Shown here: positions 30,202-46,743 of the stretch, in pieces
How positions within the stretch are numbered: position 1 is the stretch's first letter
Layout: each line of letters starts with the position of its first letter
Origin: a virus
Virus record (IMG/VR): IMGVR_UViG_3300047318_000266
Coordinates: 1-54,810 of that record
Reading direction: 5' to 3' (one strand)
Length of the DNA stretch: 54,810 nt
Notes under the pieces: generated by a model
Databases searched by the model: none
What the model was told of the DNA's origin: nothing
The model's input: the letters and a program-made list of their open reading frames with translations, nothing else
Program-made: the position numbers and the translations under genes

Positions 30202-30359
30202 AACAGCGCCACGACTAACGCCCGCACCGCAATGGCCCCGGCGATGACTACGAATAATGCCGCCCAATCACGCGCTGACTCTTCCGCCGCTGCGCGACGT
30301 TCATCGACCGGCTTAACGCGGTAGCCGCGCGGCGTGCGTTCGATATCGTACGTTGTCAT
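30198..30359 (-). CDS. Small single-pass membrane protein
   Basis: 53 aa. A charged N-terminal half (YDIERTPRGYRVKPVDERRAAAEE) is followed by one transmembrane helix (DWAALFVVIAGAIAVRALVVALL). AAGGAGG lies eight bases before the ATG. Overlaps the dUTPase start by four bases. Confidence 0.68.
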   Translation of the reverse strand: MTTYDIERTPRGYRVKPVDERRAAAEESARDWAALFVVIAGAIAVRALVVALL

Positions 30360-31878: not shown

Positions 31879-32814
31879 TTACGCGACTCCCTTCGGACGC
31901 AGCGAGTGATTGCCCGCGCCGCCTGCCGCGATAAGTTCGCCATAGTCAACGTCGGTGTCGTCGATGATCTTGCCTTCGCGAGCAACCGGTGATCCCGGAG
32001 CCGCCTCGTCCGTGCCGTGCGTGCCTTCTTTTATGGAGCCCGGCGTGATAGTGTAGCGCTTATTTGCGTATGTTACTTTCGCATAATCGTACGCCTTCTC
32101 CGGCTGCGGCGCGTCCATATACTCGCCCGGCACCGTCAGACCCAGCGCCTTACGCAGCGCGATCGCCTTGCCGATTTCTGCGTGGAATACGTCGGCTGGC
32201 GAACACTTTGCGGTGAACTTGGCGTAGACGGCGTTACCGCGCTTAACTAACGCCGTAACAACGCGCTTATCACGGTTAACGTGGAACTCAGCGGTGTAAA
32301 AGCGACCGTGCAGCGGAGACACTTTCGGAAGGTCCGCGAACGTACTTTTGCCAATCCGCAGCAACTCCGTAACGTCAGCGGTTGCCTTCGCGATAACCTG
32401 TGCGCGGGTCAGCTTACGCGGAACGTCCGGCTTACTAACACTTACGCCCGTCGCCTTAACGCTGCCTGCGCTGTCTACCGCAAGCCCAGACGCTGTAATT
32501 CCGCTTTCCAACTCCGGCAGGATCGCGCGAATGGCGTCCGCGTTGGCGAGAATGAACTGGCGGAAGGCTGCGGTCAGTGCGTCGGGTTCCTGCGGGGAGG
32601 TCGCGTCATTGATCGGATCAAGAACGATGTACTCGCGATGGAAAAGGCCGCGTCTTCCTACAGGCAACTCCGCGAAGGCACCGCTGTCCCCGGAAACCTC
32701 CACAACCACGCCTTCGTCTCCTACGCCGTAACCAATCGCCAACTCCGGCTTTACGATCTTAATCCGTTCCCCCACCGCTGCCTTACGTTTAACTTCGCGA
32801 TAATTTACGTTCAT
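31879..32814 (-). CDS. Multidomain protein with SH3-like unit, paralogue B
   Basis: 311 aa. It has one SH3-like unit at the start (YREVKRKAAVGERIKIVKPE, ending FHREYIVLDP) that is nearly the same as in the 27575 gene, and the same C-terminal domain (FHAEIGKAIALRKALGLTVPGEYMDAP). The middle is helical. First gene downstream of the repeated promoter-like element at 32874-32908 and so likely the head of a long operon reaching toward 24.3 kb. Confidence 0.78.
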   Translation of the reverse strand: MNVNYREVKRKAAVGERIKIVKPELAIGYGVGDEGVVVEVSGDSGAFAELPVGRRGLFHREYIVLDPINDATSPQEPDALTAAFRQFILANADAIRAILPELESGITASGLAVDSAGSVKATGVSVSKPDVPRKLTRAQVIAKATADVTELLRIGKSTFADLPKVSPLHGRFYTAEFHVNRDKRVVTALVKRGNAVYAKFTAKCSPADVFHAEIGKAIALRKALGLTVPGEYMDAPQPEKAYDYAKVTYANKRYTITPGSIKEGTHGTDEAAPGSPVAREGKIIDDTDVDYGELIAAGGAGNHSLRPKGVA

Positions 32815-32873
32815 TTATCGTTGCCTCCTTCGTAGTTGAGCGCTAGGTTAACGCGTCTCTCGCGCCCTATACC

Positions 32874-32908
32874 GTATTAATCGTAGTCGTCCGGAGCTCC
32901 CGCACCTT
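32874..32908 (-). promoter_or_regulatory. Repeated 35-bp promoter-like element, copy A
   Basis: On the minus strand: AAGGTGCGGGAG, nine variable bases, ACTACGATTAATAC, then TATA-like GGTATAGG. The same 12 and 14 bases with the same nine-base gap occur at 46392-46426. Copy A is 60 bases before the ATG at 32814 and just after a terminator. No good sigma-A -35/-10 pair overlaps it. Confidence 0.68.
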
Positions 32909-32925
32909 CAAACGGAACTTTATAT

Positions 32926-32980
32926 AAAAAAAACGGAGAGTCGGCGAAATTAATCGCTAACTGCTCCGCTTTGTCTCCGT
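32926..32980 (-). terminator. Strong intrinsic terminator after nrdG
   Basis: The minus strand has ACGGAGA-33 bases-TCTCCGT followed by TTTTTTT; a small inner stem GCGA-TTAAT-TTCGC lies in the loop. The left arm is inside the last nrdG codons. Ends the replication/nucleotide operon. Confidence 0.8.
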
Positions 32981-33429
32981 ATAATGCGTTGGTTCCGACT
33001 GCCCCGGTACTTAAGCGTAAGGTCACGCTCGGCCTCTACGTAGCGCCCGTCAACGATAACGTCACACAGTTCCGCTAATTCGCGTAGGTCCGGCCGCCTA
33101 AGTAACGCCTCATACGTATATCCCGTATACGCCCATACGTTGAGGACCGGACATGCGGCGCGGAATCTACGTACAAACTCCGCACAGGACCCCGCCGAGA
33201 AGAACGGATCGCCTCCGCATAGCGTTATTCCGTCGAGCAGCGGATTAGCGGCAACCTCTGCGATTAGCGCGTCCTGTAGCGCCGGCGTAAACGGACGGCC
33301 ATACGTGAAGTCCTGCGCCGCTACGTTTTGGCAGCCGGGGCAAGCGTGGCGGCATCCGCTGATATAGAATACCGCGCGCATACCGTCGCCCTCCGTTATT
33401 GACTCCGCGCAGTAGCCGGCGAGATTCAT
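32950..33429 (-). CDS. nrdG: Anaerobic ribonucleotide reductase activating protein
   Basis: 159 aa. A radical SAM enzyme that makes the glycyl radical on NrdD. The cluster motif CRHACPGC is at residues 27-34 (CxxxCxxC), followed by DGITLCGGDPFFSAGSC and NVWAYTGYTYEAL; DVIVDGRYVEAERDLTLKYRGSRNQR is the typical end. It overlaps the nrdD stop by four bases, the standard pairing. Confidence 0.95.
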   Translation of the reverse strand: MNLAGYCAESITEGDGMRAVFYISGCRHACPGCQNVAAQDFTYGRPFTPALQDALIAEVAANPLLDGITLCGGDPFFSAGSCAEFVRRFRAACPVLNVWAYTGYTYEALLRRPDLRELAELCDVIVDGRYVEAERDLTLKYRGSRNQRIIRRQSGAVSD

Positions 33430-35357
33430 ACGTGGCGTACGCGGTCTTCTACCTCCGCCTGCTTCGCCGGATTAAAGCGCGTTTTATAATCGCCGGTTAA
33501 GTAGCCGGTTACGCGGCGGATACGCGACATCGGGACAACGTGGTCCTCTACGCCGCACGACGGACACTCTGCGCCGATAATCCCTTCGTAGCCACACGCA
33601 GGGCAGCGGTCAATCGGATGGTTAACGCTGAAATATCCGATATCCTGCGAAAGTGCGTACTGTACCGTCCGCATAAAGGCGCGTGGATTATTGCGTGCGT
33701 TACCGTCGAGCTCTACATATGAGATTGCGCCGGCATTACATAGCGCATGGAATGGCGCTTCGAGTTCGATTTTACGAGCGGCTGTGATCGGATAGTATAC
33801 GGGAATATGAAACGAGTTCGTATAGTAATCGCGGTCGGTTACGCCGGGGATAACGCTGAACTCTGCGCGGTCAATCTTCGTAAACTTACCGGAAAGTCCT
33901 TCGGCCGGCGTAGCGAATAGCGTAATATTCAAGCCGTACACTTCCGAAGCGTCATCGCAGAACTCGCGCATCCTGGCGATAATTTCGGTCGCTTTAGCGT
34001 AGACTTCCGCGTCCTCTCCGTGATGCTTCCCGTAAAGCGCCGTCATACATTCCGCTAATCCGATAAAGCCGAGCGCGAGCGTTCCGTGCTTAATGAGATC
34101 GCGTACGTTATCATCAGCTCCGAGCGCTTCTCCGCCCTCCCACACGCCCTCGCGCATCATGAAGTCGGAGGCTCGCGCCGGCTGCTGCGCTTGGATTCCG
34201 TAGCGGTGAATAAGTCCGCTAACGGCCGCGTCCATGTAGTAATCGAGGTCGCCGTAGAATCCGCCGATGTCCGGTTCCTCGCGCCGGTTCGTTGCGACTC
34301 CGTATTCGAGCCCGAGGCGTACGAGGTTTAGCGTGTTGAACGAGAGATTACCCTTGCCGGATTGATGATTGCGGCCGAAGCGATCGGCTATCGTACGCGT
34401 CCGGCAGCCCATCGTCGCGATAATCGTATTCGGGTCCGCCGGATCGTAATACTGCAGATTATACGGAGCGTCCACGTTAACAAAGTTCGGATACATCCGC
34501 CGTGAGCTACATTCGACCGCGCGTACGAATATATCGTAGTTCGGATCGCCGGGCTCCTGGTTAACGCCGCGCTTACACTGGAATATCTGCTGCGGGAAGA
34601 TTGGCGTCTCCCCCGCGCCGAGTCCCGCAATTGCCGCGTCCAGCAGCGCGAATGAAACCATGCGCCCCTCCGTTGACGTACACATTCCGTAGTTAAGCGA
34701 AGTAAACGGAATCTGGCCGCCGGCCCGCGAGCTCATCGTATTCAAATTATGAATTAGCGATTCGGCCGCCTGCTGCGTCTCGTGGCGCGTCTCTTCGGTC
34801 GCATAGCGGAATGACTGCGGGAACATGGCGGCGAGGTCCACGTTATCCGCGAACAACTCTGCGTCAGCTACGTGTGCGCCTTCGCTGAAATAGCGCTGCC
34901 CCTTGCGGAAGTGTTTAGCAAATGACTTGCGGACATATGGCGCGAGGTCCCAATCAATTTTATTTCCGCTGACGCCGCCGTACTGCGCGTTCTGCTGCGA
35001 TTGGAATATGATCGCTACGAGCGCCATCGCGGTCATAATCGAATTAGGCTGGCGGACCGAGCCGCTGCCCGTATTGAATCCGTTAGCGAGTAGGCGGTCG
35101 AACGGGATGAATATACAATTCGTTGTGCCGAGCGCATATTGATCGAGGTCGTGTACGTAAACGTGTCCGTTATCAATCGCGCTGACCAGTTCGGCTGGCA
35201 TTACGGATTCACGCGCGTACCATTTCGAATACTCCGACCCAAACTTCGACATCTTACCGCTGAATGAATCCCCGTTAAGGTTAGCGTTTTCCTTGAGGAT
35301 TTCCGCATCCTGTGTGTGGATAATACGTTCGCCGATTTCGTGTAAATGCGTAGTCAA
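33426..35357 (-). CDS. nrdD: Anaerobic ribonucleoside-triphosphate reductase
   Basis: 643 aa. Reduces NTPs to dNTPs under anoxic conditions using a glycyl radical. It begins HTQDAEILKENANLNGDSFSG without an N-terminal ATP-cone. YVHDLDQYALGTTNCIF lies near residue 70, and CRTRTIADRFG near 320. The C-terminus has the zinc site CPACGYEGIIGAECPSC and the radical loop RRVTGYLTG. TTG start eight bases after GGAGG. Its presence suggests replication in an anaerobic or facultative host. Confidence 0.96.
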   Translation of the reverse strand: MTTHLHEIGERIIHTQDAEILKENANLNGDSFSGKMSKFGSEYSKWYARESVMPAELVSAIDNGHVYVHDLDQYALGTTNCIFIPFDRLLANGFNTGSGSVRQPNSIMTAMALVAIIFQSQQNAQYGGVSGNKIDWDLAPYVRKSFAKHFRKGQRYFSEGAHVADAELFADNVDLAAMFPQSFRYATEETRHETQQAAESLIHNLNTMSSRAGGQIPFTSLNYGMCTSTEGRMVSFALLDAAIAGLGAGETPIFPQQIFQCKRGVNQEPGDPNYDIFVRAVECSSRRMYPNFVNVDAPYNLQYYDPADPNTIIATMGCRTRTIADRFGRNHQSGKGNLSFNTLNLVRLGLEYGVATNRREEPDIGGFYGDLDYYMDAAVSGLIHRYGIQAQQPARASDFMMREGVWEGGEALGADDNVRDLIKHGTLALGFIGLAECMTALYGKHHGEDAEVYAKATEIIARMREFCDDASEVYGLNITLFATPAEGLSGKFTKIDRAEFSVIPGVTDRDYYTNSFHIPVYYPITAARKIELEAPFHALCNAGAISYVELDGNARNNPRAFMRTVQYALSQDIGYFSVNHPIDRCPACGYEGIIGAECPSCGVEDHVVPMSRIRRVTGYLTGDYKTRFNPAKQAEVEDRVRHV

Positions 35358-35369
35358 ATATGAGGCCTC

Positions 35370-35540
35370 CTATTCGTTTAAATGCGCGGCCGTCTCGTTA
35401 TGCCTACGCCGCGCATCCGTTAATTTACGTTGTAAATCCGTTAAAAGCGCGCCGTAAACCGCGAGGCTACGTTCGAGCTCCGCGATTTCGGCGAGTTGTG
35501 CCTGCGCTAGTTGTAACGTGAGGCGGTCCGGCTGCGTCAT
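35370..35540 (-). CDS. Small coiled-coil protein
   Basis: 56 aa: LTLQLAQAQLAEIAELERSL, then LLTDLQRKLTDARRRH; a two-helix coiled coil. Overlaps the upstream gene by four bases. Its stop lies near the GGAGG site of nrdD. Confidence 0.65.
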   Translation of the reverse strand: MTQPDRLTLQLAQAQLAEIAELERSLAVYGALLTDLQRKLTDARRRHNETAAHLNE

Positions 35541-35752
35541 GTCTGCGTGTCCTCAGCGTCTAGCGCAACGTCTAACTCGGCATAGATAGCGTACCCGCCG
35601 TCCGATGCGAGTGTTTCTCCGGGGCAGCCCTCCGCGATTTCGTCTAGCTTTTCAATACTTAACCACCCAAACACTGCGCGGAGCGTGCGCACTTCCTCCT
35701 CCGTGGCGATGATTTCGAAAAACTCCCGGTTGTCCATTCGCTCAATTCTCAT
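35537..35752 (-). CDS. Small acidic hypothetical protein
   Basis: 71 aa with IEKLDEIAEGCPGETLASDGG in the middle and an acidic end. It starts after GGAGGGATTGCGGC and overlaps the RuvC-like stop by four bases. Unknown family. Confidence 0.68.
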   Translation of the reverse strand: MRIERMDNREFFEIIATEEEVRTLRAVFGWLSIEKLDEIAEGCPGETLASDGGYAIYAELDVALDAEDTQT

Positions 35753-36306
35753 GCCGCAATCCCTCCGATTTCATCGATCATATTTTCGCGTAGTAAATAC
35801 GATAAGGCCACGGCACACGCATCGCTGTCATCGTAACCGGTCCGCCATTTGTATCCGTCGGAAAGCCGCAGATACTTCCGCACGCCTTCCGCTACTTCCG
35901 GCTTCTCCGCCTTGCCCGATCCGGCTACGTATTTCTTAACCGACGTCGGGCTCAGCGCAGGCTTCAAGTCCTCCGCCTGATATCCGTACGCTGCGAGCGC
36001 CTTGTCTGCGGCTGCCCACGCGCTGAATATCGTTTGAGTCGCGCGCTTATTCCGGCCGGACGTAAAGTCCTCGCGGACGACGATATCAAACGGGCGATGT
36101 TCGCGAAGGAAAGCAGCGACAAACGTTTCGACCGTATAATTCCGCACAGCATCCGTATCGGCCGTCGAAGTCGCTACGGAGTCACACGCGATTAAGTGCG
36201 GCGTGCGGCCCCGGACTTCCAGCGCTGCGATGCCGGGACTCAGCGATAGGTCAAGCGCGAGGATGCGGAAGTTAAACTCCGCTGGTTTCTTCGCTGGCTT
36301 CGCGAT
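35749..36306 (-). CDS. RuvC-like Holliday junction resolvase/nuclease, probable ATC start
   Basis: 185 aa when started at ATC 36306, eight bases after AAGGAGG (36315-36321). The first strand of the RNase H fold, RILALDLSLSPGIAALEV (catalytic Asp), lies near residue 16 and would be lost if translation began at the first standard codon, GTG 36147. Other acidic sites are IVVREDFTSG near 90 and GYDDSDACAVALSYL near 160. It may resolve recombination or packaging junctions. Its start lies inside the end of the preceding gene (35 bases overlap). Confidence 0.85.
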   Translation of the reverse strand: MAKPAKKPAEFNFRILALDLSLSPGIAALEVRGRTPHLIACDSVATSTADTDAVRNYTVETFVAAFLREHRPFDIVVREDFTSGRNKRATQTIFSAWAAADKALAAYGYQAEDLKPALSPTSVKKYVAGSGKAEKPEVAEGVRKYLRLSDGYKWRTGYDDSDACAVALSYLLRENMIDEIGGIAA

Positions 36307-36544
36307 CGCCTCCGCCTCCTTCCGCAGCTAACGCAAGTATCCGCGCAGCCGATTCGTCAAGTAGCATTAGGAGCTCCGCCGTTGACGTCAGGCGGTCGAA
36401 CGGCTCATTCGCGGTCATAAACGCGTCAATCTGCGCATACGTCTCCGCGCTTAACAGTTCCTCCGCCGGCTTATCCGTAAGCTCCTCCGCGAGAGAGCCG
36501 AGCGCTCCGAACGTGATTAGTTCGCGTAGTAATTGCGTTGTCAT
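36272..36544 (-). CDS. Small helical hypothetical protein
   Basis: 90 aa: LLRELITFGALGSLAEELTDKPAEELL, then STAELLMLLDESAARILAL and a Gly/Glu-rich tail. Helical bundle likely. It follows the Cas4-like gene after a stop-start contact and contains the ribosome site for the RuvC-like gene in its last third. Confidence 0.7.
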   Translation of the reverse strand: MTTQLLRELITFGALGSLAEELTDKPAEELLSAETYAQIDAFMTANEPFDRLTSTAELLMLLDESAARILALAAEGGGGDREASEETSGV

Positions 36545-37603
36545 TTACGCCGCCTCCCCTTCGCTAATTTCCGTTACTCCCGCCAGGTAATTCCGCAGAC
36601 TCTTATGCGCAGCCTTCCCCGCCATCGATCCGCCAGCCATCGCCGCTTCCGCACGTTGCAACCGCGCTAGGTTCTCCACGCTCAGCGTTGCCGCGCAATG
36701 GCTACGGAAGGCGCAGAATCCGCATTTATCCGTCATTTCAACGGAGACGTCCGGCACCTCTCCGGCGTATACGAGCGCAGCCTGACGCGCCAAGTCGTTG
36801 AGAATCTGCGCCTTCATTGCGTCAGTGATCCGTACATAGAACGCGCGCATGTCCGTAAGGGGAGCGCCCTCTTTCCACGTTTTCTGCCCCTTCGTAACGG
36901 ATGACGACTCCTCATCGCTAAACCACGACGGCTTATGGGTAGATTCGTATACGATTAGCGCCTCGTCAATTCCGAATACGAGTGACTCCGCTACGACCTG
37001 CCGCTTATGGTCGTCCTGCGCGCCTTTATAGTCGAGCTTGCCGTTCATCGGACGCAGACCGCTCGCCTTCGTTTTATACTCGAAGATAATGCGCGATCCG
37101 TCCGCTGCGTAATCGAACTTACCGTCGGGCTTAGCGGTAATGGCAAACGAGATGAGCTCGCCGGTTTCCGGATGCGGATGTGTAAATACCGTCCTTTCCT
37201 GCGCCGCGTCTTCGAAGTCCCACTCGCCGTTATCGCGGACGGCCATCGTAAACGGCGCGGACTTACCGAGTCGCTTCGGCATGTGGAGGATATCGAGCTG
37301 TACGTAATCGACAACCGCTGTACCCTGGCGGCGTTGACGTCCTCTGAACGGGATGTCGGCGGACTTTTCTGCGCGGGTTCCTTTATCGTTTTTAAAGTAG
37401 AGTTGGCGGTCACACATATTCGTGCCGGACGCGCCGAACGTAATGAGACCGTCGTTAGGATACGGCTTGTATCCGATATGGCGGAGTTTCTGTTCGTAGA
37501 ATTTCCGCTCAAGCGTGCTGTCATAAAATGACGTATCCGGTGATGCGTAATAGGCGTCCATCTGCGTTAGGAAATCGTTAACTAGCGTTTCTGCTCGTGT
37601 AAT
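36545..37603 (-). CDS. Cas4/RecB-like PD-(D/E)XK nuclease, probable ATT start
   Basis: 352 aa from ATT 37603. The nuclease core is in TAKPDGKFDYAADGSRIIFEYKTKA (D...ExK) near residue 160. One Cys near residue 64 (MCDRQLYF) and CGFCAFRSHC near 305 can hold an Fe-S cluster as in Cas4/AddB. The start context AAGGAGGCGGCTTAATAT is identical to that of the gene at 26492, but the next base makes ATT instead of ATG. The first ATG, 37561, has no ribosome site and would drop TRAETLVNDFLTQ. Confidence 0.88.
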   Translation of the reverse strand: MTRAETLVNDFLTQMDAYYASPDTSFYDSTLERKFYEQKLRHIGYKPYPNDGLITFGASGTNMCDRQLYFKNDKGTRAEKSADIPFRGRQRRQGTAVVDYVQLDILHMPKRLGKSAPFTMAVRDNGEWDFEDAAQERTVFTHPHPETGELISFAITAKPDGKFDYAADGSRIIFEYKTKASGLRPMNGKLDYKGAQDDHKRQVVAESLVFGIDEALIVYESTHKPSWFSDEESSSVTKGQKTWKEGAPLTDMRAFYVRITDAMKAQILNDLARQAALVYAGEVPDVSVEMTDKCGFCAFRSHCAATLSVENLARLQRAEAAMAGGSMAGKAAHKSLRNYLAGVTEISEGEAA

Positions 37604-37604
37604 A

Positions 37605-38096
37605 TTAAGCCGCCTCCTTCATAATTACGTTCAAACTCGCAAACACTCCGAACAGCTCTACTGCCTTCCGATTGTACGCCTCCGCAGCCTCGTGTTTGTC
37701 TGTGAAAAGACCGAGGTAAAATTCCTCTCCGCAATGCCGAATATTAGCCTGCCATTTACCTCTGGCTGCGTGCCAGTAAACACCCTTATACCCACTCTTA
37801 TTATTAGAGCGCAGGGGCATGTTCCTGTTGTTCTCATGTCTCGTGCATGTGCGCAGGTTCTCTCTGCGGTTGTCTAACTTGTCGTGGTTGATGTGGTCCG
37901 TTATAAGGCCCTTTGGAGTATCATGTACGAGGCGATGCATGAGCAGTACCTCCTTCACACCGTCTACCCTACGGCGGCTCACCGCGTATCCATTAGATGA
38001 CGAGTAGCACCATTTATAAGGGCCGACTTTCACATAATCCTCCTCGTCTATAAGTGCGTGCTTACCTTGAGTCAACTCGATTGACCTAAGCGCCAT
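37605..38096 (-). CDS. HNH homing endonuclease with AP2 DNA-binding domain
   Basis: 163 aa. HNH core: HRLVHDTPKGLITDHINHDKLDNRRENLRTC near residues 54-85, then an AP2-like domain SGYKGVYWHAARGKWQANIRHCGEEFYLGLF. It lies between the DnaQ-like and Cas4-like genes. It ends KEAA, and its last codons supply the ribosome site of the next gene. A close relative, now split, lies at 41271-41784. Confidence 0.93.
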   Translation of the reverse strand: MALRSIELTQGKHALIDEEDYVKVGPYKWCYSSSNGYAVSRRRVDGVKEVLLMHRLVHDTPKGLITDHINHDKLDNRRENLRTCTRHENNRNMPLRSNNKSGYKGVYWHAARGKWQANIRHCGEEFYLGLFTDKHEAAEAYNRKAVELFGVFASLNVIMKEAA

Positions 38097-38098
38097 CC

Positions 38099-38722
38099 TT
38101 ACGCAGCCCCTTCCGTTTTCTTAATCGTCCGCACAATCGCGCCCGGCGGCACGTATTCAAGCGGTCTTTCCTCCGAATCAATCACGACGTTCCTATACGT
38201 AATCCCGTTAACCTCCGCCTTCTCACGCAGGATCGCGTAAACCTGCAGCGTAGCCTCAACGTCATTAATCGCGCGGTGGTGTCCGTTGAGATCGACGCCA
38301 TATCTAGCGCAAACATCCGCAAGCCTGGCGCTTTCGTCCGGATCGACTAGGCGGGAGAGTGCGCGAGTACAGGCGAACCCGTCCGGAAGCGTTCCAAACA
38401 TTAAGAACGCTAAGTCAAACGGAGCATTGTGCGCTACTAACGCTGAGCTCAGCGAGAACCTGCGCAGCGCCAGAGCCGCGCGATAGGCAACGGGAGCACC
38501 GCGCAAGTCGTCCGCGCTAATCCCGGTCAACTCTGTTATGAACTCCGGAATCTCAGCGCCGGGTGGCAGCGCGACGTACGTTTGAAACCGCCCGATCTCG
38601 CGGATTGACCCGTCCGCTGAGACCTCCGCTCGGATAGCGGCGATCTCCGTAATGTGACCCGTCGTGTGATCGAGGCCGGTCGTTTCAACGTCGATAACCG
38701 TGATGATTTCGGGCGGGGTCAT
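38099..38722 (-). CDS. DnaQ-like 3'-5' exonuclease
   Basis: 207 aa from the ATG at 38722 (GGGAGG nine bases before). DEDDh motifs: TVIDVETTGLDHTTGHITEIAA (Exo I), VAHNAPFDLAFL (Exo II) and HHRAINDVEATLQVY (Exo III). It could act as a proofreading or processing exonuclease alongside the polymerase, whose own exonuclease domain also looks intact. TAATG overlap with the upstream gene. Confidence 0.92.
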   Translation of the reverse strand: MTPPEIITVIDVETTGLDHTTGHITEIAAIRAEVSADGSIREIGRFQTYVALPPGAEIPEFITELTGISADDLRGAPVAYRAALALRRFSLSSALVAHNAPFDLAFLMFGTLPDGFACTRALSRLVDPDESARLADVCARYGVDLNGHHRAINDVEATLQVYAILREKAEVNGITYRNVVIDSEERPLEYVPPGAIVRTIKKTEGAA

Positions 38723-39003
38723 TAGGCGGCCTCCCATTGCGTAATTTCTACGGTACGCGTGCGCTTCACCACTTCGTCGATATCCGCGTTACCGTAGTCA
38801 TCGTAATTCCAATCGCTGAAATACGATCCCGAGCGCGTCATATAGCCGCGATAGAAGCGAGTGCCGTCCGTAAAGATAACTTCGAGCGTTTGATACTTTT
38901 CGCCGGCTCCGTCCCAATCGCCCGTTTCAACTACGGAGTATAAACCGTCACCATCCTCGCGCCACAGCTCAATTAACTCACGGTTAGTCATTTTAACGCT
39001 CAT
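38722..39003 (-). CDS. Hypothetical protein next to the polymerase
   Basis: 93 aa: MTNRELIELWREDGDGLYSVVETGDW, YQTLEVIFTDGTRFYRGYMTR, and an acidic FSDWNYDDYGNADIDEVV. Beta-rich; unknown family. It lies two bases after polA and overlaps the DnaQ-like gene by one base. Confidence 0.72.
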   Translation of the reverse strand: MSVKMTNRELIELWREDGDGLYSVVETGDWDGAGEKYQTLEVIFTDGTRFYRGYMTRSGSYFSDWNYDDYGNADIDEVVKRTRTVEITQWEAA

Positions 39004-39005
39004 AT

Positions 39006-41270
39006 TTACGCAGCCTCCTTATTTTTGAACCATTCGTCCGGAGTAACGCCTTTACCCCAGCGCAGCATAATCGCAATATCCGTACCGTTAGCGACGTTGC
39101 CCCACGAATACGACTGCGTCATAATGCGCTCAATAACGGCGATATCTTCCCGCGTAAAATCCTCCGGAATCTCGAAGACCAATTCGTCGTGAATCGTCCC
39201 CCATAGCGCCCAGCCTTCGCGTTCCTTACACGCTTCGTGCGCTTTAATCATCGTAACTTTCGTTTGGACGGCGGAACTTCCCTGAACGCGGGCATTTGTA
39301 CCCTGGCGCATGGCCCGGTTAATCTTACCGTTGTGCTTGCGCCACTCTTCGTACTTCGGATCGTTCCACTTACCATACGGGATTTCCTTGCGCTTAAGTG
39401 TTCCGTCGGGCAAGCGCCGTTTCCGCTGCTGCTTATCCGCCCATACGAAACCGTATTTGGCGACGTGCTCCTCGTTAGCTTTAAGCCACGCGGATAGCTT
39501 CGGCATGCTACCGAACAGCTCTTCCTTAAACGCGGTCGCCTCCGGTTTCTTTAACTTGAGCATCTCCGCGAGTGAAAAGTCGCTCATCCCGTATAGGGTC
39601 GCCAGCCATACGACTTTCATCGCTTTACGTTCGGGCGTATCCTCTCCGTTCGGCAGCTTGTAAACTTCGTGATAAGGGCGCTTATAGTACATGCTCGCCA
39701 TGTTAGCGTACGGATCGATACCCTTCTCGAACGCTTCGATTAGGACCGGTTCACCGGACATGTACGCGGTACAACGTATCTCCTGCGCCTTAAAGTCCGC
39801 CGATACTAAGACCTTTCCCGACGGCGCTAGGAACATCTTCCGCGCTTCCTCCGGCTGGTTTTGAACGTTGAACTGGTTGGAATCCGCAGCATCCTCGTCT
39901 TTGCCGGAGCTGAACCGCCCGGTCACGGTCCCCATCGGATTAAACCGCGAGTGCCAGCGCTTAGTCGTCGGATTCTGTTTCGTTGGCAGCGCGTCGATGT
40001 ACGTTCCGCTGAGCTTAGTTATCTTGCGATACTCAAGCAGGTTCGCGATTACTTCGAATTCACGGCCCAGCGGTTTGAGCGTCTTCTTAGCGTCCATATT
40101 CGGAATGTCGCGGCCGATTTCTTTCGAGAGAACCGCCTTCATCTGCGGCGTAGAATTAAGGTTTAGCTCGCTGTCCCCTTCGTGATGTTTCGCTAGGACT
40201 CCGATAAGCTTCGTATGCAGCTCTTTGGCGCGAGCGCTCAGTTGCTCACCGTACTCTTTCGCGAAATCTAAGTCGAGGACGTAGCCGTTCGCCTCCAAGT
40301 CCACGATTACGTAAAGCAGCGGCACCTCAACCGTTTCGTAATATTCGAGCACGGTCGGAATGGCTGCGAAATGCTTGCGCTGGAATTGGTAAAGTCGCCA
40401 GGTCAAGTCGGTATCCTTTGCCGCGTATGCCAGCGCAATATCCAGCGTAATCTCGTTGAACGGTGTCTTACCGAAGAGTTCCGCGAACGTATCCGACTCT
40501 ACTCCGAGGTACTTCGGCGCTAAGTCTTTGAGGCGGAACGACGGTTCATTCTCGTTTAGCAAGTGCATCGCGACCATCGTATCCCACGTTACTCCGCGTA
40601 AATCGGACCCATGTCGCCTAAACATCGCGATATCGAATATGGCGTTATGGAGGACCTTACCGATATCCGCGTTATAAAGGAACCAGTGCAATTCCTGCAG
40701 TACGTAATCTCGCGATAATTGCTCGCCTTCATCGTGCGCAACCGGAATGTATACGTGCATCCCCTTTTCGGCCAGCGGCGGAATACTTACGGAAGGCAAC
40801 GTTAGCGATATGCCGACAATCACGTCAGTATAAACGTCAACTCCCGTAGTTTCCGTATCGACAGCTACCTCCGTTTCCTTGCGCAGCCTATCGTTAAGTC
40901 GTGCAAGCAGCCGTTCGTTATCGATGAGAAAGTAGTTATGCGGAGTCTTCGCGACCATACTGCGTAATCTCTCTTCGCGGATCGACACGCGTAAGTCCTC
41001 GTAAATCCGCATAGCCTCCGCTTTGCTGAACCGTTTGCCGACGCTGGACGGGTGTCTGCCCGTCACACCCGTATCCATTGCGTCTTTTACCGCGATTAGT
41101 TTCTCGCGATCGGCATCCGTATTCTTAAGCGCTAGTATCCGCGTCCAGGCTTCCGCTATTGTTTCCTCGGCGGCCTTCCTCCGTTTGGTCGCGTCCTTTA
41201 TGCGCTCCGCTACGTCTTCCGGTTCCTCAGCGGTCGGACTGCGTAGGTTAAGCGTTAGTTTAACGTCCAC
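39006..41270 (-). CDS. polA: DNA polymerase I (family A) with 3'-5' exonuclease
   Basis: 754 aa. Replicative phage DNA polymerase. An N-terminal helical part (1-120) is followed by a DEDD exonuclease: VAVDTETTGVDVY near residue 136, LHNAIFDIAMF near 205, YAAKDTDLTWRLY near 290. The polymerase palm has LVSADFKAQEIR (motif A, near 493), RKAMKVVWLATLYG (motif B, near 552) and TIHDELVFEI (motif C, near 706). No 5'-3' exonuclease domain. GTG start after GAGAGGTCGCTTAA. The HNH-AP2 remnant is inserted directly upstream. Confidence 0.96.
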   Translation of the reverse strand: MDVKLTLNLRSPTAEEPEDVAERIKDATKRRKAAEETIAEAWTRILALKNTDADREKLIAVKDAMDTGVTGRHPSSVGKRFSKAEAMRIYEDLRVSIREERLRSMVAKTPHNYFLIDNERLLARLNDRLRKETEVAVDTETTGVDVYTDVIVGISLTLPSVSIPPLAEKGMHVYIPVAHDEGEQLSRDYVLQELHWFLYNADIGKVLHNAIFDIAMFRRHGSDLRGVTWDTMVAMHLLNENEPSFRLKDLAPKYLGVESDTFAELFGKTPFNEITLDIALAYAAKDTDLTWRLYQFQRKHFAAIPTVLEYYETVEVPLLYVIVDLEANGYVLDLDFAKEYGEQLSARAKELHTKLIGVLAKHHEGDSELNLNSTPQMKAVLSKEIGRDIPNMDAKKTLKPLGREFEVIANLLEYRKITKLSGTYIDALPTKQNPTTKRWHSRFNPMGTVTGRFSSGKDEDAADSNQFNVQNQPEEARKMFLAPSGKVLVSADFKAQEIRCTAYMSGEPVLIEAFEKGIDPYANMASMYYKRPYHEVYKLPNGEDTPERKAMKVVWLATLYGMSDFSLAEMLKLKKPEATAFKEELFGSMPKLSAWLKANEEHVAKYGFVWADKQQRKRRLPDGTLKRKEIPYGKWNDPKYEEWRKHNGKINRAMRQGTNARVQGSSAVQTKVTMIKAHEACKEREGWALWGTIHDELVFEIPEDFTREDIAVIERIMTQSYSWGNVANGTDIAIMLRWGKGVTPDEWFKNKEAA

Positions 41271-41784
41271 TTAAGCGACCTCTCCCCTCTCGCTCAGTAA
41301 TGCTTGCCTGGCTTCGACTACCGCTGTGTATGCCTCCTCCGGACTTTCGTAAAAACCTACGTCAATACGCGCGTTATCGTATCTGAACCGAGCTCGATAT
41401 TTGCCTAAATGCTTCTCGTAGTAAACCCACTTAAATCCCGAGGAGCCTTTGCCTACATCTCCGGTGTTCCTATTGTTCACACCCCCGCGTAACTACCCGA
41501 AGATTGCATTTTCGATTGTCCGTTGGCTGTCGATTAATATGGTCCACTACAAGTCCGTAAATTGGCCGGCAGATGACGCGGTGCAGATACTTATGTCCGC
41601 CTGACGTTAGCCACGTCTTTGCGTAGAACTTCCCGTTAAAGCTATCTACAGACACAGTGCTGCAGATTAGAGATAGCCGTTCTACATCCTCCGTGTCCAC
41701 TAAGACATGAACCACCTCCCCGTCCTTTCTCTTTACAACGATAGTCGAGGAGCCGTCTGCGTTATCTATGATAGTATTTTTCAC
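41271..41784 (-). pseudogene. HNH-AP2 homing endonuclease split by one extra G
   Basis: Frame 1 (41784 to 41470) encodes an HNH part: HKYLHRVICRPIYGLVVDHIN, DNRKCNLRVVTR, then stops after GCEQ. A second frame (to 41271) encodes NNRNTGDVGKGSSGFKWVYY...LGKYRARFRYDN, an AP2 domain. Removing one G from the GGGGG run (41482-41486) joins them as TRGVNNRN, aligning with TRHENNRN in the intact gene at 37605. Loss of function, an assembly error, or slippage at the G run would explain it. Confidence 0.85.
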
Positions 41785-43046
41785 GCTACCAGCGCCTTAA
41801 TTATCTCCATAACAGGAATACCGGATTCTTGTACGTTGCGTACGATGCTAGTAAGCTTATCTTGTTTCGCGGTTTCCTGCGCTTCCTTCTCGATGGCGGC
41901 CGCTTCCTCTACGGTCAGCTTTTCGAGATCGCCTACGCAAAACCAGTCGTAATCACTTCCGTCCACCTTCTCTGCACGGTACGGAATATCGGACGAATCA
42001 ACTTCCGCTCTAGCGCGAGCTATCTTAGCTAGGTCTCCGGCTTCCAACTCCGCAGGCTTCTGCGCCTCAAACCCGGCCTCATCCGCAGGCTCCACGTCAT
42101 CCGTTACGAGCCAGTTGCCGACTTCCCCGTCCGCCTTCTCTGCGCGGAACTGCTGGCCGCCGTGTCGAGCGTTGTCCTTCGTTTCCGCGATTTTAACTAC
42201 GCTGCCATCCGCGTACCCGTGACCGACAGAGTTGCCCGTTACCTTTACGTAATCACAGGCGGCGTAGCGTTTAGGTTGCGCGGGAGCCTGCGCTGCTGTA
42301 GGTTCGAGGACTACGTATTCGCTCAGCACTACGAGTTTCCGATCGCTATCGCCCAATGTTACACGCACATCCCCGTCGCCATCTACGCTGTTGACGACGA
42401 ACTCCGCGCCTTGCTCGTATCTGTGTTCGTTTGGGTGACGGTTAACAATCCGAATGCGCTCGCCCTTCTCCGCCCAGCGTATAACTTCGCGATACTCAAC
42501 GGGCGGCATATCGGGAGCTTGCGCAGGAGGCTGCGCAACTTTTTCGTATACATCGAACGTGTCGCCGCTGGTATCGTAATCCCGTCCGTTGTTATCCGCG
42601 ATCTGTGCGTCACCGGCGTCATCAACTTCCGTCACCATATACGCGTTCCCAACGGTCACGCGCTGTTCATACCGCGGATGGACGACCTTCGTAATTACGA
42701 TAACGTCACCTTCGCAGGCCGGACGGTCGACTTTACGGTAGGTTGCGCCTCCGAACGTGAGCTCATCGGATGGGGCTACGGGAGGATCGACGGATAGCGG
42801 CGCATAGACTTCGAAGCTGTCCCCGGCTGTGTCATATCCGTCTCCGTCATTATCCGTAATGTGAGCGTCCCCCGCGCCGTCAACACGGTCGACAGCGTAG
42901 AATGCCCCGTCAGTTACGAATGAGGGCAGCGCTCCATCCGTAAATTTAACGATATCGCCCGCCTGCGCCTTACGGTCAACTTTACGGTAAGCCTGACCGT
43001 TAACCATTGCGTCTACTGCCGGGATTGTTACGTTCAATTTCGCCAT
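41781..43046 (-). CDS. Multidomain protein with SH3-like repeats, paralogue C
   Basis: 421 aa. At least five related units of 60-80 residues: YRKVDRKAQAGDIVKFTDG, YRKVDRPACEGDVIVITKV, YREVIRWAEKGERIRIVNR, YVKVTGNSVGHGYADGSVVK and a shorter one near 330. Each has VD-GDA/GDV then a Tyr/Asp-rich strand. A coiled coil ends the protein. It lacks the C-terminal domain shared by paralogues A and B. It lies upstream of the HNH-AP2 remnant and polymerase. Unknown function. Confidence 0.78.
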   Translation of the reverse strand: MAKLNVTIPAVDAMVNGQAYRKVDRKAQAGDIVKFTDGALPSFVTDGAFYAVDRVDGAGDAHITDNDGDGYDTAGDSFEVYAPLSVDPPVAPSDELTFGGATYRKVDRPACEGDVIVITKVVHPRYEQRVTVGNAYMVTEVDDAGDAQIADNNGRDYDTSGDTFDVYEKVAQPPAQAPDMPPVEYREVIRWAEKGERIRIVNRHPNEHRYEQGAEFVVNSVDGDGDVRVTLGDSDRKLVVLSEYVVLEPTAAQAPAQPKRYAACDYVKVTGNSVGHGYADGSVVKIAETKDNARHGGQQFRAEKADGEVGNWLVTDDVEPADEAGFEAQKPAELEAGDLAKIARARAEVDSSDIPYRAEKVDGSDYDWFCVGDLEKLTVEEAAAIEKEAQETAKQDKLTSIVRNVQESGIPVMEIIKALVA

Positions 43047-43128
43047 TTAAGCGTATCTCCTTTTCGTTAGGCTTGCGCCTTTAGGCTGCGCGGGTCTCCG
43101 CGATATCAGCCGTAATGCTTGCGTATGT

Positions 43129-43578
43129 CTAGGCTGCGAGAGCAATAACGTTAGGCTCGCGGTCGAGTGCGATCGATAATTCGCGCCACCCATTGAGATG
43201 CGCACGGTCTTCCTTCGTCCAGTACTCCGTTTGACAGACGTTCTCCAGGATGAACACGCGAGGCGTTTCGCCGTTATCTGCGAGCACTCCGATTATCCAA
43301 TCCGCATCGGCGAGGTCATACGTAGTCGCATCGCCTTTCCGCGCATAGATTACGAAGTCGCCGCCGCGATCCGTCCGCCTGCGAATCGTCTTTACCTGCA
43401 CCTTCTCCGCGCGTCCTGTTTCCGGATTTGTCGCGAGAATATCGTACGCCTCTTTCGTGCGGCTTTCGTGCGGAATCCATCCGTTAGCCAAGAGCGCTAC
43501 CTGCGCAATCATCTCCGAGTAGCGCCCCGTTATTTCCGTTTGGTGGGCCGTTTTAACCACGCTCCTCTGCGTCTTCAT
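43129..43578 (-). CDS. PD-(D/E)XK nuclease, intron-endonuclease-like
   Basis: 149 aa from the ATG at 43578. The core is EITGRYSEMIAQVALLANGWIPHESRTKEAYDILA, then KVQVKTIRRRTDRGGDFVIYARK, i.e. E...D...QxK of the group I-intron-associated PDDEXK family. DADWIIGVLADNGETPRVFIL follows. It may be a mobile or recombination nuclease. No ribosome site precedes the ATG; it overlaps the upstream gene by 26 bases and probably relies on coupling. The start is uncertain. Confidence 0.75.
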   Translation of the reverse strand: MKTQRSVVKTAHQTEITGRYSEMIAQVALLANGWIPHESRTKEAYDILATNPETGRAEKVQVKTIRRRTDRGGDFVIYARKGDATTYDLADADWIIGVLADNGETPRVFILENVCQTEYWTKEDRAHLNGWRELSIALDREPNVIALAA

Positions 43579-43858
43579 ATTCGTCTGTCTGCGTCGGCAC
43601 AACGAATCCGACAACCGCTGTTCCGTCGCTATTGCGTCCGCTTTCCGTAGCCGGACCGATCTGTACGCGGACGTCTAGCGCATACTCTTCGCCGGTCAGA
43701 TCGCGGATCGTGTTGATAAACGTAGCGACATCGTGCGCCGCCGTAGACAATTCCGCCGTCTTTTTGAGCGCGAGGGCGACGGTTAGCGAAGACTTTACGT
43801 CAACGATTTCAGCGTCGGAATCGGCGTTTACCCCCGTTGTTACCGGTACTTCTGACAT
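43553..43858 (-). CDS. Hypothetical protein downstream of SSB
   Basis: 101 aa: IVDVKSSLTVALALKKTAELSTAAHDVATFINTIRDLTG, then YALDVRVQIGPATESGRN. The alpha/beta pattern is unknown to me. Position after SSB suggests replication or recombination use. ATG after GAAGGAGGCGAACGCGC. Confidence 0.7.
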   Translation of the reverse strand: MSEVPVTTGVNADSDAEIVDVKSSLTVALALKKTAELSTAAHDVATFINTIRDLTGEEYALDVRVQIGPATESGRNSDGTAVVGFVVPTQTDEYEDAEERG

Positions 43859-43910
43859 GCGCGTTCGCCTCCTTCGTTATAGTTGCGTTGGTGCGCGAGA
43901 CCTCCGTCCG

Positions 43911-44741
43911 TTAGAACGGAAGAGATTCCTCATCGATATCTAGCGGTGCGTCAGCGTCTGCAGGCGGAGGAGTCTGTGCGGAGTTACCTGCGCTAGAACC
44001 GGCGGAGGCACCGATGGACAATCCGAGGCGTCCGATATCAAAGCCCGCGATGACCAAATTCTTCGTTTGTTCCTCTTCGTCCGCTACGTACAAGCACGTT
44101 TCGAACGATTCCATATCGAACGGAGTTTCGCCGAGCTTATCGAAGTTAGCGCGTTCTTCTGGCGTGAGGTCGCGTTCCTGCTTAACGATGGCCGAGAGCG
44201 ATACGACTGCGTCCTTTCCTGCGCCTTTCTTGGCGAGTTTGAATGCGATTACGTCGAGGTCATCTTTGTTGTCGTCGATTGCGGATTTAATCGTAGCCTC
44301 CTGTTTCGGGCTCAAGTCGACTACTACGTCCTTACCCGTCGTCAGGTCGAAGAATGCGCGCAGATAACGCTTCTTGCCTTTGAACAGATACGCCTCGTTA
44401 GTCAGCGCCTTAACTTCGTCCTCACTCGCGCCGGCTTCTTTGGCTGCGTTGGCCTCGGCGTAGAACAGGTCGGACGCCTTATCCCATAGCGTAGGGTTCT
44501 TGTCTACGTAGCCTCTCGCGTTACGTGTCGCGGGATTCTTCGGAACGAACGTCTTAACCGCGCCGTGCGTTTTGTCCCCGAACATCCCGTAGCCGTAATA
44601 CTCCGCAACGTCGTTGATCGACTTGACGCCTACGTTCAACTTAGTACCGGACTTAAACGAAGTAATCGGACTCTCCTTCGCGCCCCCTTCGTTGTTACCT
44701 GCCGCCGCTGCTTCTGCGCCTACCTTCGTAAACATGCTCAT
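43911..44741 (-). CDS. Single-stranded DNA-binding protein
   Basis: 276 aa. The acidic C-terminal tip DIDEESLPF is the hallmark of SSB proteins, following a Ser/Pro-rich linker. The central part contains LRAFFDLTTGKDVVVDLSPKQEATI and FDMESFETCLYV. The N-terminus is Lys-containing and flexible. The size is larger than bacterial SSB and more like phage gp32-type proteins. Co-located with helicase and primase genes. Confidence 0.83.
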   Translation of the reverse strand: MSMFTKVGAEAAAAGNNEGGAKESPITSFKSGTKLNVGVKSINDVAEYYGYGMFGDKTHGAVKTFVPKNPATRNARGYVDKNPTLWDKASDLFYAEANAAKEAGASEDEVKALTNEAYLFKGKKRYLRAFFDLTTGKDVVVDLSPKQEATIKSAIDDNKDDLDVIAFKLAKKGAGKDAVVSLSAIVKQERDLTPEERANFDKLGETPFDMESFETCLYVADEEEQTKNLVIAGFDIGRLGLSIGASAGSSAGNSAQTPPPADADAPLDIDEESLPF

Positions 44742-44816
44742 TCGATCACGCTTCCTCTTCGTTTAATGTACGGTTAGGCACCGCCTGACCTCGGACTATT
44801 TCCCGTGTCCGCAGCG

Positions 44817-44846
44817 CGGCTCAAGCGCGTTACTTCGCTCAAACCG
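44817..44846. other. 11-bp hairpin between the coiled-coil gene and SSB
   Basis: CGGCTCAAGCG-CGTTACTT-CGCTCAAACCG can form an 11-bp stem with a few G-T pairs on the minus transcript. There is no T run, so it may be an RNA processing or stability element in the 143-base gap before ssb. The rest of the gap shows nothing clear. Confidence 0.45.
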
Positions 44847-44884
44847 TGCGGCTGAAACGCGAAAGCTTGACGCGGGAATCACGC

Positions 44885-45406
44885 CTATGACGTCATTGAT
44901 ACGTAGCCCTCCGCGAAACTCGTTAACTCCCGCTTAGCGCGCTTGACGGCCGCTAACACTTCGCACAGTTCCGTTTCAACCACGCCGAGCTCAGCGGTCA
45001 ATACGGCGGTCCGCGCTTCCGAACGTGTCCGTAATAACGCGATGTTAAGATCGATGCGGTGCGCTTCTAACTCCGCTTTCTTGGCCGCGCAGCCCCGTTC
45101 GGCCTCAAGTGCGCGGACCTGACGCTTACGGAGCTCTTTCTCCGCGAGCTCGGCGATACACTCCGCTGCAGCCTGCGTGCGGGATGCGTAGCGTACAGAC
45201 ATTACGACGTCGGCGAATAGGTCCGCGAAGAACATGATTTTACCGTTAACGAAAAGCCGCGCCTCATTTCCATCCTCCGCAACGGTATTGCATACGTAAC
45301 GGGCCGCGCTGAGCTTATCGTCAAACCACGCAGATACGTTATCGGCCGTAGCGCCAAACCGTTCGGCGGCGCGTTTAGTTGCGTGAGCACTAGCGGTCCA
45401 GCTCAT
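44885..45406 (-). CDS. Coiled-coil hypothetical protein
   Basis: 173 aa. The first 70 residues look folded (ATKRAAERFGATADNVSAWFDDKLSAA, RLFVNGKIMFFAD). Residues 80-165 form a long helix pair (ELAEKELRKRQVRALEAERGC, AVLTAELGVVETELCEVLAAVKRAKRE). No family is recognised. It overlaps the upstream gene by four bases. Confidence 0.74.
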   Translation of the reverse strand: MSWTASAHATKRAAERFGATADNVSAWFDDKLSAARYVCNTVAEDGNEARLFVNGKIMFFADLFADVVMSVRYASRTQAAAECIAELAEKELRKRQVRALEAERGCAAKKAELEAHRIDLNIALLRTRSEARTAVLTAELGVVETELCEVLAAVKRAKRELTSFAEGYVSMTS

Positions 45407-45567
45407 GCGATCACGCGTCCTTTCAATACGTAGGGCCAGCCGCGCAGCACGTCGATGTAATCCGCAGCGTCTTCGTATTCTTCGTAGCTTCCGTTATAAA
45501 TGCGGTCGACATAGCGGTCGGATTGGCGGGTGATTTCCGCGTCCTTTTTACGTTTATTTGCGTTCAT
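45403..45567 (-). CDS. Small charged hypothetical protein, first gene of the ssb operon
   Basis: 54 aa: NANKRKKDAEITRQSDRYVDRIYNG, then EYEDAADYIDVLRGWPYVL. Helical. GGAGGT lies nine bases before the ATG. It overlaps the coiled-coil gene by four bases. Confidence 0.68.
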   Translation of the reverse strand: MNANKRKKDAEITRQSDRYVDRIYNGSYEEYEDAADYIDVLRGWPYVLKGRVIA

Positions 45568-45614
45568 ATATCGTGTACCTCCGTATAATTTAAGTGGGCG
45601 CGGTTAAATAAGCG

Positions 45615-45643
45615 TTGACAACCGCAAATTTTTTGCGTAATAT
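45615..45643 (+). promoter_or_regulatory. Consensus sigma-A promoter with palindromic spacer, plus strand
   Basis: TTGACA (45615-45620), 17-base spacer, TAATAT (45638-45643). The spacer contains CGCAAA-TTT-TTTGCG (45623-45637), a likely operator. It faces the sigma-like gene in antisense; no plus ORF follows. Confidence 0.75.
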
Positions 45644-45700
45644 TGAAAACGTTAAAGGTTTCATTTGGAATTATTTAGGGTAACCTATACATAAGTAATA

Positions 45701-45729
45701 AATATAATGAGATTATGATATACTTTTAA
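45701..45729 (-). promoter_or_regulatory. Possible sigma-A promoter for the ssb operon
   Basis: On the minus strand TTAAAA (45724-45729), 17-base spacer, TATATT (45701-45706) in an AT-rich patch, after the hairpin at 45732-45762 and before the operon that starts at 45567. Confidence 0.45.
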
Positions 45730-45731
45730 CT

Positions 45732-45762
45732 GGAACGGACTTTCTGCCCGATTGCCCGTTCC
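45732..45762. terminator. Hairpin after the sigma-like gene
   Basis: GGAACGG-17 bases-CCGTTCC, 11 bases after the stop of the sigma-like gene on the minus strand. T-rich tail is weak (AGTTAAAAG), so termination is uncertain. Confidence 0.5.
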
Positions 45763-45772
45763 GTAGTAAATG

Positions 45773-46348
45773 CTAAACGGCTAAGTATTCGTGAATTTCG
45801 CCGAAACGATTGGCGTCGAATCTGCGAGACAATTTACGGAGCTTGTCGTCAGCAACTTTATGGTGGAGGCCGACAGATTTGGCGATCTGCGTTCTCCTGG
45901 CGTCTTGGTTGGCGCTATCTAGGTAAGCTTCGACGAGTGACATCGTCGGGGAATCAGTTTCATCAACGAGGGAGCGTATCAGTTCGAGCTGATGCGCTTT
46001 CCTTGCGTTTGGTCCGGTAAATAGCATGTAGTCCACGGTTTCGATGTCGGCGGGTTCGGACCTTAGCGTGTCTTCATCCGCCGGCTTGTCGAGTATGGCG
46101 AATACCCTTCGTGCGTGGCCGCCTTGCTTTCCGCGTATTACGTCAATTGTGGCGTTGCGTAGGGCCGTCCGCAAGTACGTCTGCAGCGTTGCCCTTCCGT
46201 CATCGACGTATCTTTCGTGGGCTTTCCAAAGCGCTACGTTCATTGCGCTTATGAAATCAGCCTCCGCGATACGCGTCTTGCGGCTGTTTAGCCGGGCGAT
46301 TGAGGTGACTTCGGACTTAAATGCAGCGATTACTTCATAAAGTTCCAT
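45773..46348 (-). CDS. Sigma-70 family RNA polymerase sigma factor-like protein
   Basis: 191 aa. A region-2-like domain lies at about 28-75 (EADFISAMNVALWKAHERYVDDG, then LQTYLRTALRNATIDVIRG) and a region-4-like helix-turn-helix near 150-180 (RRTQIAKSVGLHHKVADDKLRKLS). This is the layout of a small sigma factor. It could direct host polymerase to phage promoters. One copy of the repeated 35-bp element lies 44 bases upstream, suggesting autoregulation. The ATG follows GAGAGGACGTAGTAT. Confidence 0.78.
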   Translation of the reverse strand: MELYEVIAAFKSEVTSIARLNSRKTRIAEADFISAMNVALWKAHERYVDDGRATLQTYLRTALRNATIDVIRGKQGGHARRVFAILDKPADEDTLRSEPADIETVDYMLFTGPNARKAHQLELIRSLVDETDSPTMSLVEAYLDSANQDARRTQIAKSVGLHHKVADDKLRKLSRRFDANRFGEIHEYLAV

Positions 46349-46391
46349 ATACTACGTCCTCTCTATTCAGTTGTTGTTTTTGGCTTATATT

Positions 46392-46426
46392 GTATTAATC
46401 GTAGTGACTGGTAACTCCCGCACCTT
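46392..46426 (-). promoter_or_regulatory. Repeated 35-bp promoter-like element, copy B
   Basis: Minus strand: AAGGTGCGGGAG, nine variable bases, ACTACGATTAATAC, then AATATAAG. It matches copy A at 32874-32908 in all 26 fixed positions and keeps the spacing. It is 44 bases before the sigma-like gene. Confidence 0.68.
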
Positions 46427-46465
46427 TTTGCGGATAATAATTAAATAATCTTTACGGAGGCATTT

Positions 46466-46678
46466 ATGGCTTATAAAGTCACTAAATGCCTGCTAGGTGT
46501 ATTGCTTGATGAAGCAAGGATGTCTAAGGCTGAACTGTCGCGAATCACCGGCATCAGCGAAGGACAGATATACGATTACATCGCTAATCGTGTCGGCGTA
46601 ATGGGACTCGCAAACGCCCGTTCAATTGCGGAAGCATTGCGCTTAGAGTCCCCGTACGATTTATACGAGTGGTCGTAG
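46466..46678 (+). CDS. XRE-type helix-turn-helix regulator
   Basis: 70 aa. LLDEARMSKAELSRITGISEGQIYDYIANR then GLANARSIAEALRLESPYDLYEW, a single Cro-like domain. Divergent from the sigma-like gene; the region between includes copy B of the repeated element, so it could regulate that promoter. GGAGG lies seven bases before the ATG. Confidence 0.87.
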   Translation: MAYKVTKCLLGVLLDEARMSKAELSRITGISEGQIYDYIANRVGVMGLANARSIAEALRLESPYDLYEWS

Positions 46679-46695
46679 TCACCGAGTAGGCGCGA

Positions 46696-46743
46696 GAAGA
46701 GTTTCGTACTCTTCCGTAGCCGAACCCTCGTATATTAACGAGG
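46696..46743. terminator. Two tandem hairpins between converging genes
   Basis: GAAGAG-TTTCGTA-CTCTTC (46696-46714) and CCTCGT-ATATTA-ACGAGG (46726-46743) lie between the plus HTH gene and the primase stop. TATTTTT follows nine bases later on the plus strand. They probably end both transcripts. Confidence 0.55.

Follow-up and report, generated by a model that had tools for sequence, protein, structure and literature searches.

Phage-encoded sigma factors such as SPO1 gp28 and gp33/34 and T4 gp55 switch transcription programmes, bringing the host core polymerase to two-part phage promoters of one temporal gene class. Here we describe a system that probably resembles these by role, in IMG/VR virus record IMGVR_UViG_3300047318_000266 (54.8 kb, analysed at its full length and called the window below): a 35-bp element that occurs twice, and a 191-amino-acid (aa) sigma-like protein whose gene follows one of the two copies. 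Comparative sequence analysis makes it very probable that RNA polymerase carrying this phage-encoded sigma factor reads the element as a promoter. Unlike the SPO1 and T4 factors, the protein is small and two-domain, belongs to temperate phages, would control its own gene and is matched to a -10 half that is phage-specific. With the extracytoplasmic function (ECF, group IV) sigma factors it shares the restriction to region 2 and a region-4-like part, a size of ~190-210 aa, an autogenous promoter, few targets and a strict promoter, whereas its score below the curated ECF/sigma-70 cut-off and its long, highly invariant -10 half set it apart. Sporulation-like phage sigma factors, also carried by phages of Bacillota, resemble SigF/SigG, act on host sporulation and alter host dormancy (PMC9429907); in contrast, the sites of the 191-aa family are confined to the prophage in the two host genomes tested. 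A search of the open-licence literature returned nothing on this sigma family, on diversification of a phage-sigma promoter code or on tandem promoter arrays.

A whole-window scan located the element, AAGGTGCGGGAG-N9-ACTACGATTAATAC, on the minus strand at 32908-32874 and again at 46426-46392, with 0 mismatches in either copy; there are no further sites with up to three mismatches in the window, and none of 100 dinucleotide shuffles produced the pair. An earlier note on this DNA had reported 26 fixed bases identical between the copies, TATA-like bases beside them, a position 44-60 bases before minus-strand genes and a lack of sigma-A boxes, and all of this is borne out. Two bases past the element follow TATAAG and TATAGG, respectively, and the distance to the start codon is 44 bases for the 191-aa gene (start 46348) and 60 bases for a 311-aa gene, gene B (start 32814), while sigma-A-type promoter scans of 46200-46700 and 32700-33100 found none. 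The copies agree only in the two fixed blocks and the trailing TATARG; since the N9 spacers and the flanks are dissimilar, the pair is not a recent long duplication.

46392-46426, minus strand: candidate promoter copy 1 (autogenous), an exact repeat, with a homologous promoter before every close sigma homologue; -35-like GTGCGGGAG at 46423-46415, -10-like ACTACGATTAATAC at 46405-46392 and TATAAG at 46389-46384 (predicted start region).
32874-32908, minus strand: candidate promoter copy 2, before gene B; its equivalent in genome G019 is of the window variant, that in G003 of the G003 variant; -35-like half at 32905-32897, -10-like half at 32887-32874 and TATAGG at 32871-32866.
45773-46348, minus strand: predicted 191-aa phage sigma factor, with Pfam Sigma70_r2 (found in family members too) and fold matches to sigma subunits; N-terminal region 2 (~1-78), linker, C-terminal region-4-like helix-turn-helix (HTH, ~119-176) and tail DANRFG..YLAV.

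Judging from Pfam, NCBIfam (below its cut-off) and the modelled fold, the most fitting description of the 191-aa protein is that of a two-domain, ECF-like phage sigma factor. Sigma70_r2 matches it at 1.9e-5 (24.8 bits versus a cut-off of 24) and is found in 12 of 16 family members (E up to 1). The C-terminal part of seven of the 16 matches the generic HTH_50, and HTH helices also appear in the structure model; Sigma70_r4 gave no match. The AlphaFold2 model reaches a predicted local distance difference test (pLDDT) score of 68.5 overall and 81-90 across most of the N-terminal domain. When it was searched against the PDB, nearly all of the best 50 matches listed were sigma factors (RNA polymerase complexes, sigma-32, sigma-S, WhiG), with whole-chain matches to sigma subunits and a top match at E 3e-3 and probability 1.0. 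A sequence-profile search against the PDB gave a single weak ECF match (SigK, E 0.87), and the PHROGs search did not recognise the protein. Its layout is of ECF type, with region 2 (11-75), a linker and a region-4-like HTH (~150-176) only and neither 1.1 nor 3; no anti-sigma gene was recognised beside it, though without a dedicated search. The description of the protein as sigma-like in the earlier note thus stands, on the Sigma70_r2 match just above cut-off and the sigma-subunit fold matches.

The earlier note had also proposed a motif search in relatives, and comparative evidence of this kind supports the promoter reading: the motif lies before homologous sigma genes, and each phage's variant is common to its sigma gene and its other targets. 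In G001 and G002 the window motif stands before the gene of a 76% identical sigma and in G019 before gene B; in G020 it precedes a third gene, wedged between a terminator and a ribosome-binding site. In G003 the sigma is only 38% identical to that of the window over the aligned part (gene B is 73% identical), and a different variant, AGTGTGCG-N16-CGTTGAAG, is common to its sigma gene, its gene B and the ortholog of the G020 gene that has the window variant. Hence, three orthologous promoters have changed type together with the diverged sigma. Across the family the -35 half (AGTGTGCG; GGTGCGGGAG in the window) is fairly constant, and each phage has a -10 half of its own.

In each of the Paenibacillus/Neobacillus prophages, a fixed-spacing scan located 2-5 sense-strand copies of the sequence that lies before the sigma gene, and none on the opposite strand at that threshold; a free-spacing two-part scan was too permissive. 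The variants are CGGCAACGTAAT in G040 (five copies), CTGTTAGGTAT in G037 (four), and TCTTGTGTATTA in G036, TCCGAATAATAC in G035 and TCGTATTAACA in G034 (two each). In the complete host genomes G040 and G037 (6.4 and 6.0 Mb), 5 and 4 sites, respectively, were found with up to three mismatches allowed, every one of them inside the prophage and in a single orientation, and control scans of these genomes gave 0 sites. As expected of an autogenous promoter, the motif therefore stands before the sigma gene and other phage operons and is absent elsewhere in both complete host genomes.

A profile search of 396 Paenibacillaceae genomes identified 23 with a sigma homologue, and the 16 that were new to the analysis were examined for further prophage copies of the region ahead of the sigma gene, relative to random-region controls. 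Eight of the 16 beat every control (G178, G209, G395 (by one base), G328, G404, G228, G205 and G094); in G111 the recurrence is recognisable by eye, not above control, and in G233 the sigma start had been mis-called. With these recurrence results, 17 of the 18 Paenibacillaceae prophages and phage contigs compared below carry the sequence before the sigma gene at least once more, on the same strand and before other genes, G309 being single-site.

As region 4 of a sigma factor reads the -35 and region 2 the -10, a sigma-dependent promoter should show the two half-sites changing with separate domains. Indeed, Mantel tests on 18 Paenibacillaceae sigmas linked the N-domain to the -10 half (r=0.58, p=0.0002) and the C-domain to the -35 half (r=0.41, p=0.008), with cross terms of -0.04 (C-domain versus -10) and 0.21 (N-domain versus -35); the initial set of eight sigmas had given r of 0.71 (N/-10), 0.72 (C/-35), 0.02 (C/-10) and 0.15 (N/-35). 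Furthermore, two N-domain types occur combined with similar C-domains, and the start of the putative recognition helix varies with the -35 half (LHHE with GTGTGCG, LHHK with GGTGCGG, LQRN with GTGTACG). Such natural matched sigma-promoter pairs, from whose co-variation both -10 and -35 specificities can be read, are rare among sigma families. Altogether, phage-specific variants common to the sigma gene and its targets, and half-sites that co-vary with separate domains, point to a sigma-dependent promoter, as the earlier note had suggested in proposing that the phage sigma reads the element.

The same data bear on a different explanation, in which the element would be an operator for a phage repressor or activator and a nearby host sigma-A promoter would do the work. 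A suitable regulator adjoins copy 1, and one regulator could bind at several operons:

46466-46678, plus strand: divergent 70-aa Cro/C1-type HTH protein (HTH_26, 7e-9), adjoining the autogenous promoter; candidate repressor.

However, the element lacks dyad symmetry, the scans at both copies revealed no sigma-A promoter nearby, and an operator would not explain half-sites that follow two sigma domains. Moreover, in G020 and in G002/G003 the unit fills the gap from the upstream terminator or stop codon to the ribosome-binding site, which leaves no room for another promoter. We thus regard an operator as very improbable.

Several observations weigh against a promoter read by the 191-aa protein. 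Its Pfam score barely exceeds the cut-off, it falls below that of NCBIfam TIGR02937 (sigma70-ECF; 27.8 versus 42.9 bits), and the model combines a pLDDT of 68.5 with a low-confidence linker and a best fold E-value of just 3e-3. The co-variation draws on few genomes, and its half-site strings were delimited by the analyst. G309, which also has a close homologue, contains a single proper unit, and no motif recurs with the five most distant homologues (G258, G292, G110, G310 and G428), which were left out of later comparisons. G003 retains a window-type site after a second sigma gene, though the specificity of its first sigma differs. Finally, protein binding, the transcription starts, the timing and the assignment of the -10 half are predictions, and TATAAG is a less likely candidate for the true -10.

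This second phage sigma, of 211 aa and with region 2 at 4.5e-10, is encoded at L033:1651-2286 in G002 and at L034:712-1338 (minus strand) in G003. G002 has two further window-type sites, one past the terminator upstream of the second sigma gene and one right after that gene's stop codon, the latter unit's end being overlapped by the ribosome-binding site of the next gene. The 211-aa protein is the clearer sigma factor and its gene is directly trailed by a window-type promoter in both G002 and G003, which could make it the reader of the motif in place of the 191-aa protein. Yet tblastn found it only in G002, G003, G111, G233 and G094, and neither in the window nor in most motif-bearing relatives, while the promoter variants track the domains of the first sigma; it is very unlikely that the 211-aa protein is the reader.

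For the 191-aa protein as reader, we propose the following mechanism. The C-terminal region 4 would read the -35-like half GGTGCGGGAG and the N-terminal region 2 the -10-like half ACTACGATTAATAC, 17-18 bases away, and transcription would begin close to the TATARG that follows, a short way ahead of the ribosome-binding site. The sigma factor would turn on its own gene and thereby the downstream replication genes, together with the gene B-PhoH-dUTPase operon, acting as a positive-feedback step in the early-to-middle phage programme. A circuit of self-activation plus another operon, as put forward in the earlier note, corresponds to the conserved minimal regulon in the comparative evidence. Copy 1 stands at the head of the sigma gene and of the replication genes that follow (the phrog_6883 protein and DNA polymerase), and copy 2 at that of the gene B operon:

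43911-44741, minus strand: phrog_6883 protein, in the replication region downstream of the sigma gene.
39006-41270, minus strand: DNA polymerase, further downstream of the sigma gene.
31879-32814, minus strand: gene B, 311 aa, phrog_17910, of no assigned function; first gene of the second target operon.
30761-31414, minus strand: PhoH-like protein, downstream of gene B.
29554-30267, minus strand: dUTPase, downstream of gene B.

At the place matching the phrog_6883 gene, phage 268TH002 has an annotated ssDNA-binding protein, the homology being suggested by gene order. From this mechanism one would predict which genes form the middle regulon in these Paenibacillus and Bacillus phages, a group that has received little study.

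In the Bacillus branch, the phage units are GTGTCC-N18-GCAGTTAT-like and lie before the sigma gene, before the dUTPase gene (itself promoter-proximal in these relatives), near one genome end and within the 3' part of aimR. Taken by itself, the short core motif hardly exceeds chance in some of these genomes (six sense and seven antisense in G027), and the sites thus rest on position and repetition. The arbitrium circuits of SPbeta phages are known (PMC8270828). In Bacillus phages 268TH002 and phi18-2, aimR (NF038310, 4e-56) is immediately followed by the sigma homologue, which places a sigma factor right behind the arbitrium receptor gene. In contrast, the window has no aimR beside the sigma gene, whose neighbour there is the small HTH gene. 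Between aimR and the sigma homologue of 268TH002 (L031:4377-6513) we also noticed a GAACAA/TTGTTC inverted repeat.

Elements can be triggered through the transcription signal of another phage: P4 promoters respond to P2 Ogr, and satellites such as SaPIs sense their helper phage through derepression. A comparable arrangement may exist for the promoters described here. The window motif, searched for in Paenibacillaceae, was found at two places only, both tandem arrays of units with differing -10 halves, and queries with adjacent genes or array units added six more, for a total of eight elements:

L227:10560-11240: array in G285.
L226:4900-4300, minus strand: array in G233.
L239:3440-3960: array.
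L240:3560-3960: array.
L263:4870-5270: array.
Upstream regions in G201, G287 and G213: arrays.

The units of an array all lie on one strand, before antirepressor or antirepressor-like operons, and their -10 halves include that of the window; -35 cores number 6-12 per array on one strand versus 0-2 on the other (up to 13 by eye). On the sense strand of seven arrays, five of 24 phage -10 sequences (window, G003, G328, G005 and G006) have exact 11-base matches; the antisense strand gives 0, and shuffled -10s average 0.14 (maximum 2, 2000 shuffles). Other -10 types, e.g. GTCGTCTTTAT and CATTACGGATATT, are orphans whose cognate sigma is expected in some phage. The first genes behind the arrays include one for an ANT-domain-like protein, and G233, G432 and probably G434 have a Bro-N/ANT antirepressor. 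The G285 carrier has an integrase beside spoIVB-spo0A, and the G432 carrier has terminase, portal, head, tail and tape-measure genes, all but those for the tail noted on the same strand. In seven of the eight carriers (genome or record searched) no homologue of the 191-aa sigma was found, with the caveat that records are fragmentary and sigmas may be too distant for the profile; G233, the eighth, has one on another contig and served as positive control.

We read the arrays as receivers without a sender, a predicted function. Unlike P4 and SaPIs, they hold roughly 6-13 different promoters matching the sigmas of different phages, and the carrier G432 has structural genes. On balance we favour, with some reserve, a picture of temperate phages with a fast-diversified private promoter code (region 2/-10) and of array-bearing prophages that eavesdrop on it. 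If so, incoming or induced phages of many types would switch on the antirepressor of the resident element, and such parasitism could drive diversification of the code. Prophages would then recognise other phages through the specificity of their transcription factors, and an arms race over promoter sequence would have a concrete cause. The arrays also bear on whether the element might act as RNA, as a riboswitch-like leader or RNA-protein site rather than as DNA read by RNA polymerase. Its position 20-90 bases upstream of start codons would suit a leader, but tandem arrays of mutually different units better suit promoters, an Rfam search of the window gave no match, and in C-type and Bacillus sites the conserved part abuts the ribosome-binding site, which leaves almost no leader; an RNA element is thus extremely improbable.

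Some observations concern the target genes themselves. Gene B has partial paralogues at 27575-29104 and 41781-43046, the paralogous stretches lying at ~27.7-28.5 kb and ~42.3-42.5 kb, in agreement with the earlier note, which had called the gene behind copy 2 a paralogue. In L007, L008, L012 and L013, two tandem units with different -10 types lie upstream of gene B, one of them apparently unlike the phage's own sigma promoter. Another promoter class, TGTCCCAA-N-TGTCCTTATATA-N-TATGTAAGG, occurs upstream of gene B in L016, L018 and L020 and also within arrays; no sigma of the 191-aa family was found in phages with this class, apart from a weak match in the L016 record. A sigma-A signal beyond the end of the sigma gene points, in turn, at the HTH gene:

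45615-45643, plus strand: near-perfect sigma-A-type promoter TTGACA-N17-TAATAT, antisense to the sigma gene and directed through it at the HTH gene.

In 15 genomes a counterpart lies 150-255 nt past the stop codon of the sigma gene; this suggests that a repressor transcript would oppose the sigma transcript.

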